A DNA stretch of 19,591 nt. Origin: Gemmatimonadota bacterium (lineage in GTDB: Bacteria; 4572-55; J002). Positions 5,958 to 12,352 of this stretch are shown piece after piece; position 1 is the stretch's first letter; each line of letters opens with the position of its first letter. The DNA is taken from positions 1-19,591 of the forward strand of contig RFFQ01000164.1 in assembly GCA_003697105.1 (NCBI GenBank), read 5' to 3'. Below the pieces are notes generated by a model, which was given only the letters and a program-made list of their open reading frames with translations, was not told the origin of the DNA and did no database searches. Both the position numbers and the translations under genes were made by a program.

Positions 5958-7694
5958 ATGCTTGAAAACTATAATGAATTAATCACCGGTTTAGATCATG
6001 TTATAGGGGACATTTTACAGCTCGCCCACCAACGGCATTTGACGACGCTTACTCAATTCCTGACAGATCATGTTCGCTTAAAATTGCAAAAAAACGAGTT
6101 TTACATTGTCGTTTTAGGAGAGTTTAACGCCGGTAAATCTTCGCTAATCAATGCGTTACTTCAGAAGGATGTCCTTCCCACATCGGTTCGTCCGACGACG
6201 GCAACACTCAATGTGATCACCTATGGCGAATCTGCCCAAGCCACTGCCGTGGGTTATGATGGAACAACGACACCCATTGAACTTGACCAGTTGCGGAATT
6301 ACGTGACCGTAAGCGGCAGCCACACGGAAAAAGTCGCACAGGTGAACATCGAATATCCCCTAGATATGTTAAAAAATGGGGTCATCCTCGTGGACACGCC
6401 GGGAGTGAATGACATCAATCTGCAACGCACCGAGATCACGTCACACTACTTACCCAAAGCCGATGCCGCGTTATTTGTAATGGATTGTAAACAACCGATT
6501 AGCCTCTCCCAACTCCAATTTTTAAAGGAAAACGTGTTGGATAGTACCATCCAAAAGATATTTTTTATCCTGACCAAGATCGATCAGGTGGAAGAAGGGG
6601 AACGCGATGAGGTGCTAGCTTATGTTCGCGAAGAATTGAGCCGGGTGGTGGATCAACCTAAAGTATTTCCGTTTTCAGCAACCCGCGCCATAGCAGACCC
6701 GACCGACTACTATTACCAATATTTTCGGGATTCTCTGAATCAGTTTTTGGCACAAGATAAGGGTAACTTGGTACTCCTGAGCGGGCTAGCCAGTGCTCAG
6801 AATGCCATCAACACACTGAAACGGAGCGTGGCACTGGAAGAAAAAACGGTAAGTGACACGCTGGCAGATTTAGATGCAAAGATTGAAGCTATCCGCCCCC
6901 AAATTGAAGCCAAACAACGCGAAAAACAGCAATTGATTCAAGCAATTGACGATAAAATTGAGGAAGTAAACGGGTATTTTGTTTCCAGTTTACAGGTATT
7001 TACTCATGAATTTTCTCAAAAAATAGAAGATGAAATTCAAACAGCGAATGTGGATGATCTGAAAAAGTATTTGGCGGGGTTTGTGGAAAGCCGGTTTCGG
7101 GAGTGGCTCGATACAGAAAACCAGCGAATTCAAGACGAATTACGGAATTTTACTGCCGGAATTTTGCAACAGACCGGAGAAATTTTGAAAGAATTAGAAG
7201 ACCAATTTGCCCAACTCACGGAAATTCCGGCAAAACTTGACCTTGATATGACATACTTCACTCATGATGTCGCACTATTTGTGGGCGAGGGGCTGATCAT
7301 CTTGTTTAGTTTTTCATTACTCTCCGCACCATTCGCCATCATTAGCACCATTTTAGGTGGTGGAGCGCTTTATACCTACATGCGGGATTTGCGTCACGAA
7401 AAATTTCGAGAAGAATCGATCAAACGCACCCGGCAAGCCATTACCGAAACAAGTGAAACGCTGAAACCAAATGTTTACCAGCAATTGAGTGAATATGCCA
7501 ATCAACTAAAAACGTATGTGAATGATACGATTGAAACATCCATTCACTCTTTGGAAACCACCGTGGATCATATTCGCCAGCAAAAAACGCGTGAGGGCAC
7601 GCCGGTAACAGAACAGCGCCGGCAACTGGCAGAGCTGAACAATCAAATCGCCCAATTAGAGGACAAACTCCGGTCAATCCGTCAGAAAATATGA
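5958..7694 (+). CDS. Bacterial dynamin-like GTPase with C-terminal membrane segment
   Basis: This 578-aa large GTPase has P-loop GEFNAGKSS (54-62), switch RPTTAT (78-83), DTPG (146-149) and TKID (206-209), all typical of bacterial dynamin-like proteins. After the G domain comes a long helical, coiled-coil region (about 280-430). A hydrophobic stretch at about 437-475 (FVGEGLIILFSFSLLSAPFA...) is likely a membrane paddle or hairpin, and another charged coiled coil reaches the end. Such proteins bind and remodel membranes, with roles in fission, fusion or repair. The start follows GAAGGGAG at 8 nt, and it lies 14 nt after the DinB-like gene, so it is third in the mpl operon. Usually two such proteins occur side by side. 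Here there is only one. Confidence 0.9.
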   Translation: MLENYNELITGLDHVIGDILQLAHQRHLTTLTQFLTDHVRLKLQKNEFYIVVLGEFNAGKSSLINALLQKDVLPTSVRPTTATLNVITYGESAQATAVGYDGTTTPIELDQLRNYVTVSGSHTEKVAQVNIEYPLDMLKNGVILVDTPGVNDINLQRTEITSHYLPKADAALFVMDCKQPISLSQLQFLKENVLDSTIQKIFFILTKIDQVEEGERDEVLAYVREELSRVVDQPKVFPFSATRAIADPTDYYYQYFRDSLNQFLAQDKGNLVLLSGLASAQNAINTLKRSVALEEKTVSDTLADLDAKIEAIRPQIEAKQREKQQLIQAIDDKIEEVNGYFVSSLQVFTHEFSQKIEDEIQTANVDDLKKYLAGFVESRFREWLDTENQRIQDELRNFTAGILQQTGEILKELEDQFAQLTEIPAKLDLDMTYFTHDVALFVGEGLIILFSFSLLSAPFAIISTILGGGALYTYMRDLRHEKFREESIKRTRQAITETSETLKPNVYQQLSEYANQLKTYVNDTIETSIHSLETTVDHIRQQKTREGTPVTEQRRQLAELNNQIAQLEDKLRSIRQKI

Positions 7695-7854: not shown

Positions 7855-7931
7855 GGCGGGTTGGAGAAGTTAGGTATCTCGTCTGGCTCATGACCAGAAG
7901 ATCCCCCGTTCGAATCGGGGACCCGCTACCA
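7855..7931 (+). tRNA. tRNA-Met(CAT), initiator-like with unusual positions
   Basis: A complete cloverleaf folds by eye. The acceptor stem is 7855-7861 with 7921-7927, and the D stem GAGA/TCTC is 7864-7867 with 7877-7880. The anticodon stem TCTGG/CCAGA (7882-7886, 7894-7898) carries anticodon CAT at 7889-7891. The T arm CCCCG-TTCGAAT-CGGGG is 7904-7920. A73 and an encoded CCA end at 7931. The A11-U24 pair and a weak first pair (G1-U72) are typical of bacterial initiators. However, the three G-C pairs of the anticodon stem are reduced to two (U29-A41 replaces G29-C41), and position 37 is G instead of A. It is most likely an initiator variant. Elongator Met and Ile2 (lysidine-modified) remain possible. 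Confidence 0.93.
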
Positions 7932-7932
7932 T

Positions 7933-7969
7933 AAAAAAGCCTCTCAATTTTGAAATTGAGAGGCTTTTT
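7933..7969. terminator. Bidirectional terminator after the tRNA
   Basis: GCCTCTCAATTT (7939-7950) and AAATTGAGAGGC (7953-7964) form a perfect 12-bp stem, followed by TTTTT and preceded by six A. It can end both the tRNA transcript (+) and the convergent four-gene operon (-). Confidence 0.93.
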
Positions 7970-7998: not shown

Positions 7999-9513
7999 TT
8001 ACCGCTTTGCCCGAGCGCGGGTCAGCCGCTTCATTGCCGCCTGTAAGCTGGTCGCCAAGCGGGAGATAGAATCGGCTAATGCCCCGATTTCATCTTCAGA
8101 TTGGACATCAATTTTTAACTCCAAATCTCCCATACTGATTTTGTCGGCAAGTTCTGTCAAACGCACAATTGGACGTGTAATTCCTTGAGAAAATTGGTAC
8201 GCAAGCCCGATTGCAATTAAACCGAAGACGGCAATAAAAATGATGGTAATCAAGCGGGTATTCCGTGTGGTTCTATCGATTTCTGCGGCGGTTTCGGTCG
8301 CTTTCTTGTAGAATTCTTCCACACTGGCGCCAACACCCACCCAACCGAAACCTTCCGGGTACGTATATCCCCCGTTAAAGTAACGGATGGGGGCATATGC
8401 CACGAACAAGTTTTTACCTTCCCAAAAGTATTCAATGGAGCCGGGTTCACCTTGGGCAACCCGGTTTGGAATTTTCACGATCTCTGTAAATTGCGGAAAT
8501 TCAGCCAGCACATCTTTCAAAGCAACTAAATTCACTGGGTGGCTCAGGAACGGGTCTTTCAAGTGGTTTGATGCAGACGCTGCCGGAAAAGGATTACCAT
8601 TTTTATCCACACCCCGAATAAACCAATGTTGGTTATTGGCAATAAACCATCCTTCGTTATCCACAATGTAGGCTTCATTTCCGGCTTCAGGGTCGGGGAT
8701 TAAACTGTATCGTTTTTCAGTGGGCACAATATGCGCCACAAATTCCATCAGGTGGGTATGGTTCAAAGCAAGCCCAATGACCCCATCAAACGTACCATCA
8801 TTTTTGAAGACAGGCATCGCAAAGCGGACAATGCCTTGGAAGGGTTTGCCTTTTGCCTCACGCAGATTGGGACCACGTGTGAGCACATCATCTTGCATCA
8901 ATACATCATCCATTGTCCGGTAGCGCCCAATCACATGCGAGACAAAAATTTCCCCTTGGCGTGTTCCCGTTAGTTTTTTTGCCTCCTCAAAATACGTTTC
9001 TGCCTTAAAATTTGTATTTTGGCGGACACTCACATTCCGCAAACGCGGCGGATTTTCATCCAGAACAATTCCATCGATAACGCGCACCTGTTCCCAACCG
9101 GCGGCATCTACATACACTACTTCCGCATAGATGGGTAGGTCAACCCGTTCTTCTTCCCCCGTATTTGGATTGCGGCGCCATACCTCGCGGACCCGGGTAC
9201 GAGCGAAGTTCTCATAAACTTCCACATCGCGTGGCAGAAGCGCCAAGGCCCGCAGGTCATCTTCGCGTTCACGCAGGAAATCCGCTATCTGTTCCGCAAT
9301 TTCAAACGTACGCAGTTCAATAGCTTCGGTGGACTTTTCATTGAGCGCGGCTTTACTATCTTCAACTGCCCGTGTACCCACATCCGTGATCCGACTGAGT
9401 GCAAACCAGCCAAAGATCATCAACGGCACCAATGAAAGAATAATAAATAGGGAAAATACCCGGAATGAAATGCTTTTGGGTAGAGAAAAGGAAAAACGCT
9501 TGCCTTCAGCCAT
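7999..9513 (-). CDS. dCache-HAMP transmembrane sensor without output domain
   Basis: The 504-aa protein has a cytosolic start, membrane helix 1 at about 18-40 and a ~380-residue periplasmic part that looks like a double Cache domain (EAYIVDNEGWFIANN and GFGWVGVGASVEEF are typical strands). Membrane helix 2 is at about 420-440, followed by a HAMP domain (about 441-495: ITRPIVRLTELADKISMGDL, then EDEIGALADSISRL). It ends nine residues later with a basic tail, so no methyl-accepting, kinase, cyclase or GGDEF domain is present. It probably senses a small ligand and passes the signal to a separate protein. It is last in a four-gene operon, 23 bp after the solute-binding lipoprotein gene, a natural candidate partner. 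AAAGGAG lies 12 nt before the ATG. Calling it a chemoreceptor would go beyond the sequence. Confidence 0.88.
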   Translation of the reverse strand: MAEGKRFSFSLPKSISFRVFSLFIILSLVPLMIFGWFALSRITDVGTRAVEDSKAALNEKSTEAIELRTFEIAEQIADFLREREDDLRALALLPRDVEVYENFARTRVREVWRRNPNTGEEERVDLPIYAEVVYVDAAGWEQVRVIDGIVLDENPPRLRNVSVRQNTNFKAETYFEEAKKLTGTRQGEIFVSHVIGRYRTMDDVLMQDDVLTRGPNLREAKGKPFQGIVRFAMPVFKNDGTFDGVIGLALNHTHLMEFVAHIVPTEKRYSLIPDPEAGNEAYIVDNEGWFIANNQHWFIRGVDKNGNPFPAASASNHLKDPFLSHPVNLVALKDVLAEFPQFTEIVKIPNRVAQGEPGSIEYFWEGKNLFVAYAPIRYFNGGYTYPEGFGWVGVGASVEEFYKKATETAAEIDRTTRNTRLITIIFIAVFGLIAIGLAYQFSQGITRPIVRLTELADKISMGDLELKIDVQSEDEIGALADSISRLATSLQAAMKRLTRARAKR

Positions 9514-9536
9514 AAGTCCCTGGATCTCCTTTCGGC

Positions 9537-10538
9537 TCAGTCTAAGATAATCTGCTTAAAGCGTCGGATTGTTTTGATTCGATTCGAACTGACCTCATTC
9601 CAATCGATCACGAGCGCACGGTCTAATGCGTTTTTAACAGTTGCTCGATCAACACCTGTTGGGGGCGCCACATCAGAACGGGCGGATAAAAATGAACCCT
9701 CACGTGCCAGAAGCTCTTGGCCTTCCGGGGATAACACATAATCGATAAATGTTTCCGCACCCTTAATATTATCCGAAGTTTGGGTAATCGCAATCGGACT
9801 CGGAATCAAGACAATACCATCTTCAGGATAGATAATTTCCAAGGGGCTTCCCGCCACTTTTTTGGAACGTGCCACATAATCCAGCAAGATCGCCACTTGG
9901 AATTCACCTTTTTCCAACCGGTCGGCGACTTCACCATTACTGTTTGCAATCACAATGTGGTTAGCGCCTAATGCCTCAATAAATTCCCAGCCTTTTTGCT
10001 CCACCATTGCCGCTAACCATGCCAACGCCGATCCGGAACGGCGCGGGTCGGGTGAGATAATATTATCTTTCCAGACCGAATCCTGTAAATCGGACCATAA
10101 CCGCGGTGCCGCTTCGGGTCGAACTTGATTTGTGTTATAGACAATACACATACTGATCAGACGACCGCCGTAATAATAATTATTGGCATCCTTAAATTTT
10201 GTCGGAATATGGGAGCCTTCCGGCGAATCATATTGCCGTAAAAGACCCTGATCGATCAGCCGCAAATACTCAGAAGGGTCTGCCGCCCACACCAAATCCG
10301 CTTGTAACCCTTGGGGAGATTCAATTTCCAGCTCAATCCGGGAGCGTAGCGCGGTCGTTGATTCCCGAATAACTTCCAAATCCAGATCGGGATATGCCTT
10401 TTCAAACTCCCCTTCAATTTTTTCAATAATGGGTTGCGGCATGGAGGTATATAATGTTAGCATATTATCATTTTGTCCATCGCATCCCCCTAGCCACAGA
10501 ATAACGAGTCCTAATAGACCATAAGCCGCCCGTCTCAA
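9537..10538 (-). CDS. Extracellular solute-binding lipoprotein (Fe3+/polyamine-type ABC binding protein)
   Basis: The N-terminus is a lipoprotein signal, with a hydrophobic stretch ending LGGC (modified Cys at 19). The mature part has the two-lobed binding-protein pattern of the FbpA/PotD and aminoethylphosphonate type: LTLYTSMPQPIIEKI, ADLVWAADPSEYLRL, PRLWSDLQDSVWKDNIISPD, SGSALAWLAAM, AILLDYVARS and FIDYVLSPEGQELLA. The ligand cannot be predicted; no clear Tyr-Tyr iron site was identified. No permease or ATPase gene is nearby, so it more likely feeds a sensor than a transporter. The neighbouring Cache-HAMP protein fits that. The start is TTG with GGGAGGG 7 nt upstream, 13 bp after the preceding stop. 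The nearby ATG is out of frame. Confidence 0.88.
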   Translation of the reverse strand: MRRAAYGLLGLVILWLGGCDGQNDNMLTLYTSMPQPIIEKIEGEFEKAYPDLDLEVIRESTTALRSRIELEIESPQGLQADLVWAADPSEYLRLIDQGLLRQYDSPEGSHIPTKFKDANNYYYGGRLISMCIVYNTNQVRPEAAPRLWSDLQDSVWKDNIISPDPRRSGSALAWLAAMVEQKGWEFIEALGANHIVIANSNGEVADRLEKGEFQVAILLDYVARSKKVAGSPLEIIYPEDGIVLIPSPIAITQTSDNIKGAETFIDYVLSPEGQELLAREGSFLSARSDVAPPTGVDRATVKNALDRALVIDWNEVSSNRIKTIRRFKQIILD

Positions 10539-10551
10539 GATTCATCCCTCC

Positions 10552-11427
10552 CTAATAGTTCTTTAATAGTGCGAAGAAGGTTTCTGTAAATGCTTTCATT
10601 TTTTCACCATCATCAATTTCCGGTTCTAGCAATTCTAGCAATTGGTTGGTCTTACTTTTGGGAAACTGGTCTAAGGAAGCATCAAGTTCTTCGACTTTTT
10701 CTTCCACAATGATGGGACCCATGGGACCGACCAATTTGGTCAGTTCATCGGAAATTTGGTCCAGAAATGCCGGGTCAATCATCTCCTCATCCTGCGAAAC
10801 CGCCTGCTGGGACTGAAGCATATAGGCATGTTCAATATCCGTTTTGTACACACTGAAAACCGCACCATGCTTCTCGGATAGCTCTAGCAATTTCTCAAGG
10901 GCGGCATCCCCCTCAATGATATTTCCACTGCTATCGGCATAGGCATTTTCCCGCAGAATACCTTCCCCAAAAAAGATCGACCCTTCCCCTTGGTCATCAT
11001 TGATCAAAATTTCAATATATCCCCAGTTTTCCTCATCTTGAACTTTGCTGATCAGCTTATTCAGCTTGACATAATCGGTGGTTAAACCTTCATGAAGGGG
11101 TTGCCGACCCGTCACCATTGCGCAAGTAACGGTTTGTTCACTTTCTAATTGATGAACACTGATCTGCCCATCGTTATCCCGGCATTTATGAAGCAAATTT
11201 TGGTAAGCAACTTTACCCCCCTTTAGCTCCTTTTTGGTGGTGCCTGAAACTTCCATGGCATTGATAATATTACCATTATCCAGAAAAATATAGCCATAAT
11301 ATTCCCAGAAGCTCAATTTAACATATCCGGTAAACTCCTCGCTCACTAGATTGTTAATAAATTGAGTAATTTCAATATAGCTCGTATATAAATTATCTTT
11401 CAGGATAACCCCGTTTGGAAATATCAT
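10552..11427 (-). CDS. Cytosolic protein with two DUF4388-like units and a GP-motif C-terminal domain
   Basis: This 291-aa protein has no signal sequence. Two units share a pattern of strand, gene-product-surface strand and helix: FTGYVKLSFWEYYGYIFLDNG (with NIINAMEVSG after it, residues ~32-61) and WGYIEILINDD followed by GSIFFGEGILRENAYADSSG (~135-168). This resembles the DUF4388 fold seen in bacterial signalling proteins. An acidic linker leads to a C-terminal helical part, DQISDELTKLVGPMGPIIVEEKVEEL then AFTETFF (~223-285). Its VGP...V pattern recalls small C-terminal domains (DUF8082-like) of kinases and gliding/signalling proteins. No catalytic motif is seen, so an adaptor role is inferred. 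Its ATG overlaps the ATP-grasp stop by one base (TAATG), indicating coupled translation and balanced amounts of the two proteins. Confidence 0.75.
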   Translation of the reverse strand: MIFPNGVILKDNLYTSYIEITQFINNLVSEEFTGYVKLSFWEYYGYIFLDNGNIINAMEVSGTTKKELKGGKVAYQNLLHKCRDNDGQISVHQLESEQTVTCAMVTGRQPLHEGLTTDYVKLNKLISKVQDEENWGYIEILINDDQGEGSIFFGEGILRENAYADSSGNIIEGDAALEKLLELSEKHGAVFSVYKTDIEHAYMLQSQQAVSQDEEMIDPAFLDQISDELTKLVGPMGPIIVEEKVEELDASLDQFPKSKTNQLLELLEPEIDDGEKMKAFTETFFALLKNY

Positions 11428-12296
11428 TACTCAAAGGCTCCTTTAGAGAGTTTATCATAAATATAATGAATCTGCAAAGCTGGAATATCCAGATCGGGCA
11501 TGTAGGTTTGGAACAGCGCCCAACCCGGGCAACCATTAATATCGACCATATAATAGGCTTGCTTACCAGCCTCAATCAAATCAAGCGCGGTCACACCCAA
11601 ATCAAAGAGATTCACAATGGCGAGTGCAAGCTGTTTCAATTGGGGTGACGCCACACCCGGTTCTACCTGAATAGGTTGCGACCGGTTTGTGCGCCAATCT
11701 TCGGTCTGGCGGTACCGGTACAACACACCCGCAATGTCCCCGCCAATAACAAATACGCGAAGGTCTCGGGTATGGGGGAGATATTCTTGCAAATAGTAGG
11801 GCGCCGGAAGGGCTAAGAGCCGATCCCCTAATCCTGCCGTGTCTGCCTGAAAAAGCAACTGACCTCGCCCCCCTTTTGCCCGATCCGGTTTTGAAATGAC
11901 GGTGTGTACCCGCTGAATGAAATCCACGGCACACCTGACATCCGAAGTAACAAGAGTACGAGGCACCAAAAACCCATATTGAGCCAGAATAGAAGTCGAA
12001 ACAATCTTGCTACTGCTATAAAAAAGAGCTTCCGGGGTATTAATGAAAAAAGCCTGATCCGAAAGCCAGATTAGTGCTTTCAGAATAATGGGATCAGACT
12101 CAAGCAAATCTAAAAACCCTTTAACAATTATCGCATCAACCTGTTGGTAATTAGTCCGAGAATCCGCTAAAAACGCGGAGACCAGTTCCCCCGGCGAAAT
12201 GTAAACTGCCCGACCGTACTTTGCGGCAGATTGAAGCAACTGCGTGGTGCCCCAACCCAGTGTAGGGCTAATAATTCCAACGGTGTACGACGTCAA
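11427..12296 (-). CDS. RimK-like ATP-grasp ligase
   Basis: The 289 residues form an ATP-grasp enzyme of the RimK/LysX type. ATP- and metal-binding features are ISKPD (K136), GGRG (142-145), YLQEYLP (168-174), DLRVFVIGG (178-186), WRTN (201-204), ALDLIE (237-242) and VDINGCPGW (251-259). These enzymes join a carboxylate, as acyl phosphate, to an amine or thiol. RimK relatives add glutamates or other amino acids to proteins or small peptides. The target here is unknown, but coupling (TAATG) to the DUF4388-like gene makes that protein a candidate substrate. The start is TTG 12294-12296, with AAAGGT about 11 nt upstream and an in-frame TGA just before, so no longer start exists. A good promoter lies directly upstream, making it the first gene of the operon. 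Confidence 0.88.
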   Translation of the reverse strand: MTSYTVGIISPTLGWGTTQLLQSAAKYGRAVYISPGELVSAFLADSRTNYQQVDAIIVKGFLDLLESDPIILKALIWLSDQAFFINTPEALFYSSSKIVSTSILAQYGFLVPRTLVTSDVRCAVDFIQRVHTVISKPDRAKGGRGQLLFQADTAGLGDRLLALPAPYYLQEYLPHTRDLRVFVIGGDIAGVLYRYRQTEDWRTNRSQPIQVEPGVASPQLKQLALAIVNLFDLGVTALDLIEAGKQAYYMVDINGCPGWALFQTYMPDLDIPALQIHYIYDKLSKGAFE

Positions 12297-12323
12297 AGAA
12301 TTTCAGACCTTTACTTCTGATCA

Positions 12324-12352
12324 ATACTATCAAAATTACGAGAGGTTGTCAA
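12324..12352 (-). promoter_or_regulatory. Sigma70-type promoter of the ATP-grasp/DUF4388/SBP/Cache-HAMP operon
   Basis: On the minus strand, a perfect -35 TTGACA (12347-12352), a 17-bp spacer and TAGTAT (12324-12329) precede the TTG start by about 30 bp. The transcript would start near 12317, just ahead of the AAAGG ribosome binding site. Confidence 0.75.

Follow-up and report, generated by a model that had tools for sequence, protein, structure and literature searches.

How does a membrane receptor pass on its signal when its cytosolic part consists of a HAMP domain and little else? This question is raised by a four-gene operon at positions 7999 to 12,352 of contig RFFQ01000164.1 from a Gemmatimonadota bacterium (assembly GCA_003697105.1), which was analysed over its whole length of 19,591 nucleotides and is referred to below as the window. 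All four genes are open reading frames (ORFs) of the minus strand:

12296-11427, minus strand: RimK/MptN-like ATP-grasp gene, TTG start, first gene of the operon
11427-10552, minus strand: DUF4388-like soluble adaptor, 291 amino acids, two PATAN/DUF4388-like repeats and a STAC-like domain
10538-9537, minus strand: solute-binding lipoprotein (SBP_bac_6), 333 amino acids, TTG start, lipobox LGGC at residues 16-19
9513-7999, minus strand: dCache-HAMP receptor, 504 amino acids, two membrane helices (from the ORF, the Pfam HAMP match and AlphaFold2)

The last three genes probably encode a three-component receptor system of the Af1503/Af1502 type, in which the lipoprotein would signal to the dCache-HAMP receptor and the latter to the STAC/PATAN adaptor, with a small-GTPase module or something similar as the probable next step. 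Af1502 is a STAC protein of Archaeoglobus fulgidus, encoded beside Af1503 and translationally coupled with it (PMC4834066; PDB 4gn0, 5a1q). In Af1503-like receptors, the HAMP domain is the sole cytosolic part; their genes are found among transport genes and are often coupled to those of STAC proteins, which share an LGPx(x)A motif (PMC4834066). Since the receptor and the adaptor were each matched through a search of their own, the two window genes probably correspond to Af1503 and Af1502 as a pair.

The receptor and its HAMP domain

Two parts were distinguished in the receptor, which was modelled with AlphaFold2 at a predicted local distance difference test (pLDDT) value of 80.7:

8287-9369, minus strand: extracytoplasmic double Cache domain, residues 49-409, structurally similar (Z 15-18.7) to the dCache sensors of kinases and chemoreceptors
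8002-8190, minus strand: Af1503-type HAMP domain and short C-terminal tail, residues 442-504, from the PDB sequence search

While the HAMP domain was recognised by Pfam (1e-10), the match to dCache_1 (4e-7) stayed under the cut-off; the dCache assignment nevertheless holds because of structural matches up to Z 18.7. When HAMP domain and tail were compared to all solved structures, the first 17 matches were all Af1503 HAMP constructs (E 4.8e-10 to 4.7e-6, some of the PDB entries bearing generic names), and the first HAMP domain of another protein followed at E 0.011. Judged by sequence, the receptor HAMP is thus specifically Af1503-like. The tail signature [RM]xxSLxxAxxRL, common to the related receptors, is also present in Af1503. 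As had been described in the initial annotation of the locus, no output domain was found in the receptor. The protein ends within approximately 10 residues after the HAMP domain.

The Cache family of the receptor is found in other contexts as well. Members in Chloroflexota carry a HAMP domain with a longer tail and are encoded beside ParA-like genes, those in Omnitrophota are fused to an apparent histidine kinase and those in Syntrophaceae-like Deltaproteobacteria are devoid of HAMP. Because the relatives carry differing HAMP domains and outputs or none, the Cache sensor is a reusable module combined with different outputs. The Chloroflexota proteins were rejected as representatives of the same system, since HAMP and tail differ, the Cache domain being shared; their genes (L118:1997-12598, L037:7849-10276, L050, L047) are recurrently located beside ParA/MinD-like ATPases, and the tail after the HAMP domain is conserved among them. 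An ATP-grasp protein at one of these loci (L118) is Ddl-like, not RimK-like. In Syntrophaceae and relatives (L041-L119; e.g. L048:7560-9323), the HAMP-less Cache membrane protein is usually preceded by a gene for approximately 125 amino acids, the product of which resembles the F0 c-subunit in the one sequence inspected.

The soluble adaptor

Three domains are proposed for the adaptor:

11143-11427, minus strand: PATAN/DUF4388-like repeat 1, residues 1-95, secondary structure b-a-b-b-b-a-b, weak Pfam DUF4388 match
10840-11103, minus strand: PATAN/DUF4388-like repeat 2, residues 109-196, element order resembling that of repeat 1
10558-10776, minus strand: STAC-like four-helix domain, residues 218-290, Af1502 fold and profile matches

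The model, calculated from a two-sequence alignment (pLDDT 68.7), comprises two successive b-a-b-b-b-a-b units and a separate four-helix domain, the latter with higher confidence (pLDDT 80-90). DUF4388 (PF14332) was matched at E 0.008 and 16.7 bits (cut-off 25), whereas adaptor relatives reached 22.1 and 25.1 bits; in one relative (L038:5807-6835) the match (E 1.9e-5) covers residues 115-178. The alpha-helical insertion, a PATAN feature according to the title of Makarova 2006 as cited in PMC11580455, is absent from the predicted model, which is of moderate confidence in this respect.

Superposition of the four-helix domain on Af1502 (5a1q) gave Z 6.2 over 69 of 69 residues at a root mean square deviation of 3.0, a Z score that small helical bundles also reach by chance. 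With a profile of seven such domains, Af1502 was ranked first among 177,635 solved sequences, at a modest E value of 0.0022. In the GPxA motif of these seven sequences, GP is invariant, while A is present in five, replaced by G in the window copy and by S in one relative. The C-terminal domain of the adaptor is therefore probably, if not provenly, a STAC domain. The initial annotation had called the protein DUF4388-like, which is borne out by the weak match and more clearly by the relatives, and had missed the STAC-like domain. The latter gave no match in Pfam, and no solved relative was retrieved with a profile built from the entire adaptor. A likeness to DNA sliding clamps (weak whole-length Foldseek matches, TM approximately 0.14) was dismissed as an artefact arising from the repetition of beta-alpha units, and a match of repeat 2 to acetolactate decarboxylase (Z 6.9), typical of common arrangements, was left uninterpreted. 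Among the structural matches listed for the adaptor, none was to a roadblock fold.

Conservation of the gene group

In a sister genome (same class, other family), the genes for the DUF4388-like protein, the solute-binding protein and the dCache-HAMP receptor are kept in the same order and on the same strand, with 43-44%, 37% and 44% identity, respectively, to the window proteins. Because the same trio is also found side by side in a different family of this class, the grouping exceeds chance, and conservation as a signalling unit extends to three of the four genes. The ATP-grasp protein had no match anywhere in the sister genome. Of the co-occurrence that the initial annotation had proposed to look for across genomes, that of these three genes is thus found in the sister and that of the fourth is not.

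The ATP-grasp protein scored above the cut-off for Pfam RimK (3e-15, 56.6 bits versus 21) and below that for NCBIfam rimK_fam (98.6 bits versus 143.4); an identity as the ATP-grasp protein of the GAK system was ruled out (40 bits versus 300). Its relatives among 386 sampled genomes are 25-32% identical. The four of their contexts that were examined all lie apart from clusters of the kind described here, two of them adjoining genes that, read by eye, resemble mch and other tetrahydromethanopterin genes. Since the gene is absent from the sister and its relatives are found in other contexts, the conserved core consists of three genes, and the ATP-grasp gene is, as far as sequence comparison can tell, probably lineage-specific, accessory or a passenger. 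The same two results speak against the role of a core enzyme modifying one of the partners, which had been assigned to it earlier.

Pairing of STAC and receptor genes

Relatives were gathered with an adaptor profile containing no HAMP information and with a STAC profile, and their neighbouring genes were then checked. Confident STAC matches were obtained in ten bacterial families. In nine of them, the STAC gene and the gene for a HAMP-ending receptor are at most two genes apart: f1 and f2 (both with the solute-binding gene in between), f55, f76, f129, f247, f12, f138 and f163, the last three of which had been held out from the STAC profile. HAMP proteins make up approximately 0.5-1% of the genes (8-53 candidates per genome listed), so that chance pairing is, as a rough estimate, a few percent per family. 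A functional basis of the gene pairing is thus supported but not proven. The HAMP-ending receptors in two genomes (G267 and G012) have no STAC neighbour. STAC profile matches in G047, G178 and G041, the last of them within a UvrC-like protein, were set aside as chance or as too weak.

Two of the families show further arrangements. In f138 (L280:3616-6055, L281:3531-5958), a secreted-looking beta-helix/TonB_C protein is encoded between STAC and receptor, at the place of the lipoprotein. In f129 (L247:5115-8017, L248:5476-8252), a Ser/Thr kinase with a C-terminal STAC-like domain directly precedes the HAMP-ending receptor.

Ligand input and downstream links

The lipoprotein belongs to SBP_bac_6 (4e-29), and its solved relatives comprise a pyridoxal-phosphate binder (P5PA), binders of the iron and hexose-phosphate types and HptA (6lki, E 2.7e-9). 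HptA acts on HptS, a sensor with a double PDC and a HAMP domain (PMC8774646, PMC8534201, PMC10384115). With this solved precedent of homologous parts, the docking of the lipoprotein on the Cache domain, as put forward in the initial annotation, gains support by analogy, and signalling from lipoprotein to Cache domain is plausible. Solute-binding proteins are also encoded beside related receptors in Chloroflexota and f229.

On the output side, roadblock and MglA-like genes share the cluster in f55, f76, f247 and f100; the f138 cluster contains roadblock, and that of f229 MglA and two binding proteins. In f229 (L306:74-3763), the HAMP-ending receptor is followed by the MglA-like GTPase and two Peripla_BP_6 proteins, and the contig ends upstream, where a STAC gene could be missing. 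The window genome harbors an MglA/roadblock pair at another locus. The proximity of PATAN genes to MglA genes had been observed earlier (PMC4316618), and the pilus motor PilB of Synechocystis is a binding partner of PATAN domains (PMC10519157).

A paralogous locus in both the window genome and the sister encodes a sensor, HAMP and DUF4388 in a single protein, with genes for a solute-binding protein and for RsbW/RsbV-like proteins next to it:

L158:3715-8259 (G000:C69) and L161:2560-7047 (G001:C15): solute-binding protein, fusion protein, STAS-HATPase and STAS genes

Here the solute-binding protein is fused to AhpC/TSA in one locus and to LysM in the other, and no STAC match was obtained for the HAMP-DUF4388 fusion in the profile search. 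Since the fusion joins HAMP and DUF4388 in one protein, it supports signalling between them; together with the pairing in nine of ten families, it makes the DUF4388-like protein the likely partner of the HAMP domain, as had been suggested before. The fusion leaves two outputs possible.

Proposed mechanism and its alternatives

From these data we infer the following sequence of binding steps and output. The lipoprotein would bind a small solute, which may be phosphorylated, judging from the nearest relatives of the protein, and would dock on the double Cache domain in the way known from HptA and HptS. The receptor HAMP would then switch its conformation and hand the signal to the soluble adaptor, there being no fused output domain. 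The signal is likely received by the STAC-like domain, at the HAMP domain or the conserved tail, and the output likely runs over the surface of the PATAN-like repeats. A likely downstream target, encoded elsewhere in the window genome, is a switch of MglA and roadblock or a different regulatory module, the former because receptor/STAC pairs of the relatives share clusters with roadblock and MglA.

Several observations weigh against this mechanism. The DUF4388 score of the adaptor itself is below the cut-off, its motif reads GPMG where GPxA is expected, and the STAC assignment combines a modest E value with a Z score attainable by chance for a small bundle. The pairing has exceptions, as f13, one f12 genome and a second f129 locus are without an adjoining HAMP-ending receptor. 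Genes for a GTPase, a roadblock protein, a kinase or a response regulator are missing from the window operon. Furthermore, deletion of STAC in CbrA and CrbS caused no obvious difference in growth (PMC5715377).

That the operon is an accidental collection of unrelated genes is scarcely credible: the conservation test rests on one other genome of the class, but the three genes are kept there at 37-44% identity across families, and STAC/HAMP pairing recurs in nine of ten. A fourth component modifying adaptor or receptor, e.g. by glutamylation, might be seen in the ATP-grasp enzyme, since its gene is RimK-type in sequence, stands first in the operon and overlaps the adaptor start with its stop; with the sister retaining only the other three genes and the nearest relatives located in other contexts, in two cases next to mch-like genes, such a role appears quite improbable.

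The lipoprotein falls into a transporter-type family, and dCache domains often bind small ligands directly, so that the lipoprotein might serve only a distant ATP-binding cassette transporter and be co-transcribed for shared regulation, with the receptor sensing its own ligand. This is considered rather unlikely, as neither the window operon nor that of the sister contains a permease or ATPase gene, solute-binding proteins recur next to related receptors and the HptA-type precedent exists for a binding protein acting on a sensor. The paralogous loci of both genomes, with their STAS-HATPase and STAS genes, raise the alternative that signals from the receptor enter a partner-switching (RsbW/RsbV-like) sigma-factor pathway instead of reaching a GTPase, the adaptor acting like the DUF4388 part of the fusion. 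It is judged unlikely, given that no RsbW/RsbV-like genes lie beside either operon, that the fusion is without a STAC match and differs in its sensor part, and that STAC/HAMP pairs are tied to roadblock or MglA in four other families.

Beyond the three-component system of the window, the data hint at a bacterial class of receptors ending in an Af1503-type HAMP domain, which would signal non-covalently to separate STAC adaptors (PATAN, roadblock-like or Ser/Thr-kinase fusions) controlling small-GTPase switches, with ligand supplied by binding proteins; this generalisation is tentative and held with slightly less than even confidence. If true, it would give the Af1503 HAMP, a main structural model for transmembrane signal passage in receptors, its missing receiver. 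In the published account, Af1503 has no recognisable effector module and Af1502 was studied alone (PMC4834066); no report on a downstream partner or cellular role of Af1503 was found in the open-licence literature, and an earlier mention of bacterial STAC/HAMP pairs is possible outside it, the original STAC paper included. The same HAMP subtype with the same type of neighbour in many bacterial families makes the partner of a HAMP-only receptor directly testable.

Promoter, terminator and neighbouring genes

The layout given in the initial annotation, with four same-strand genes, a 1-bp overlap, gaps of 13 and 23 bp and a terminator, was confirmed. Adaptor start and ATP-grasp stop overlap by one base (GAGTAATGATA), and the gaps separate adaptor and lipoprotein (13 bp) and lipoprotein and receptor (23 bp). 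Kinase, response regulator, permease, ATPase, GTPase and roadblock genes are all absent from the window operon. The flanking features are:

12352-12324, minus strand: sigma-70-like promoter candidate, TTGACA-17-TAGTAT with TG, 10/12 matches
about 7934-7969, minus strand: intrinsic terminator hairpin followed by a U run, -23.3 kcal/mol, z = -7.1
7855-7931, plus strand: tRNA-Met

The promoter candidate is one of the two top-scoring sites in the region. The "one good promoter" described earlier thus stands as a 10/12 match, but since the number of such promoter-like sites (12) is that expected from shuffled sequence (10.7 +/- 3.1), a promoter at this position is plausible and not demonstrated. 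The hairpin, located between tRNA-Met and operon, could act as a terminator for both strands. Just before the tRNA-Met and the operon end, a bacterial dynamin-like GTPase gene is located on the opposite strand (5958-7694; Dynamin_N 9e-33). By reading, the C-terminal part of the ORF at 435-1604 resembles an inorganic pyrophosphatase, preceded by an N-terminal extension of approximately 200 residues, and a short ORF at the contig edge (7-333) resembles the end of a transposase or integrase.

Comparison with known systems

Solute-binding proteins signal via a membrane sensor in HptASR of Staphylococcus aureus and CuaDSR of Ruminiclostridium (PMC8774646, PMC8534201, PMC10384115). The window lipoprotein is related in sequence to HptA, and HptS has a double PDC and a HAMP domain like the window receptor; however, the sensors of both systems are histidine kinases with response regulators, neither of which is present in the window receptor or operon. 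The actinobacterial conservons CvnABCD (PMC13343842, PMC4316618) combine a HAMP membrane sensor, roadblock and an MglA-like GTPase in one cluster, as do several of the relatives, but the conservon sensor is kinase-like, solute-binding protein, PATAN and STAC are not reported there, and the window operon is devoid of a GTPase.

The PATAN/DUF4388 regulators PatA and PixG (PMC10519157, PMC4316618) resemble the adaptor in their PATAN-like interaction modules, some of which are encoded near MglA genes. The adaptor differs from them by the lack of a receiver domain, by two tandem repeats without helical insertion and by its sub-cut-off Pfam score. In the SLC5-STAC kinases CbrA and CrbS (PMC13022988, PMC5715377), STAC is likewise positioned at the handover from membrane to cytosol, but within one polypeptide after the transporter, whereas the STAC-like domain of the window is part of a separate soluble protein.

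The initial annotation knew of no named system of this composition and overlooked the Af1503/Af1502 (STAC) pair. The window differs from that pair in being bacterial, in the fusion of the STAC-like domain to two PATAN-like repeats and in the lipoprotein gene between the two partners; the direct comparison covered HAMP and STAC. Shared by both are a receptor with HAMP as its only cytosolic part, the same HAMP subtype, a neighbouring gene for a protein with a four-helix domain that is probably STAC-like, and links to solute uptake.

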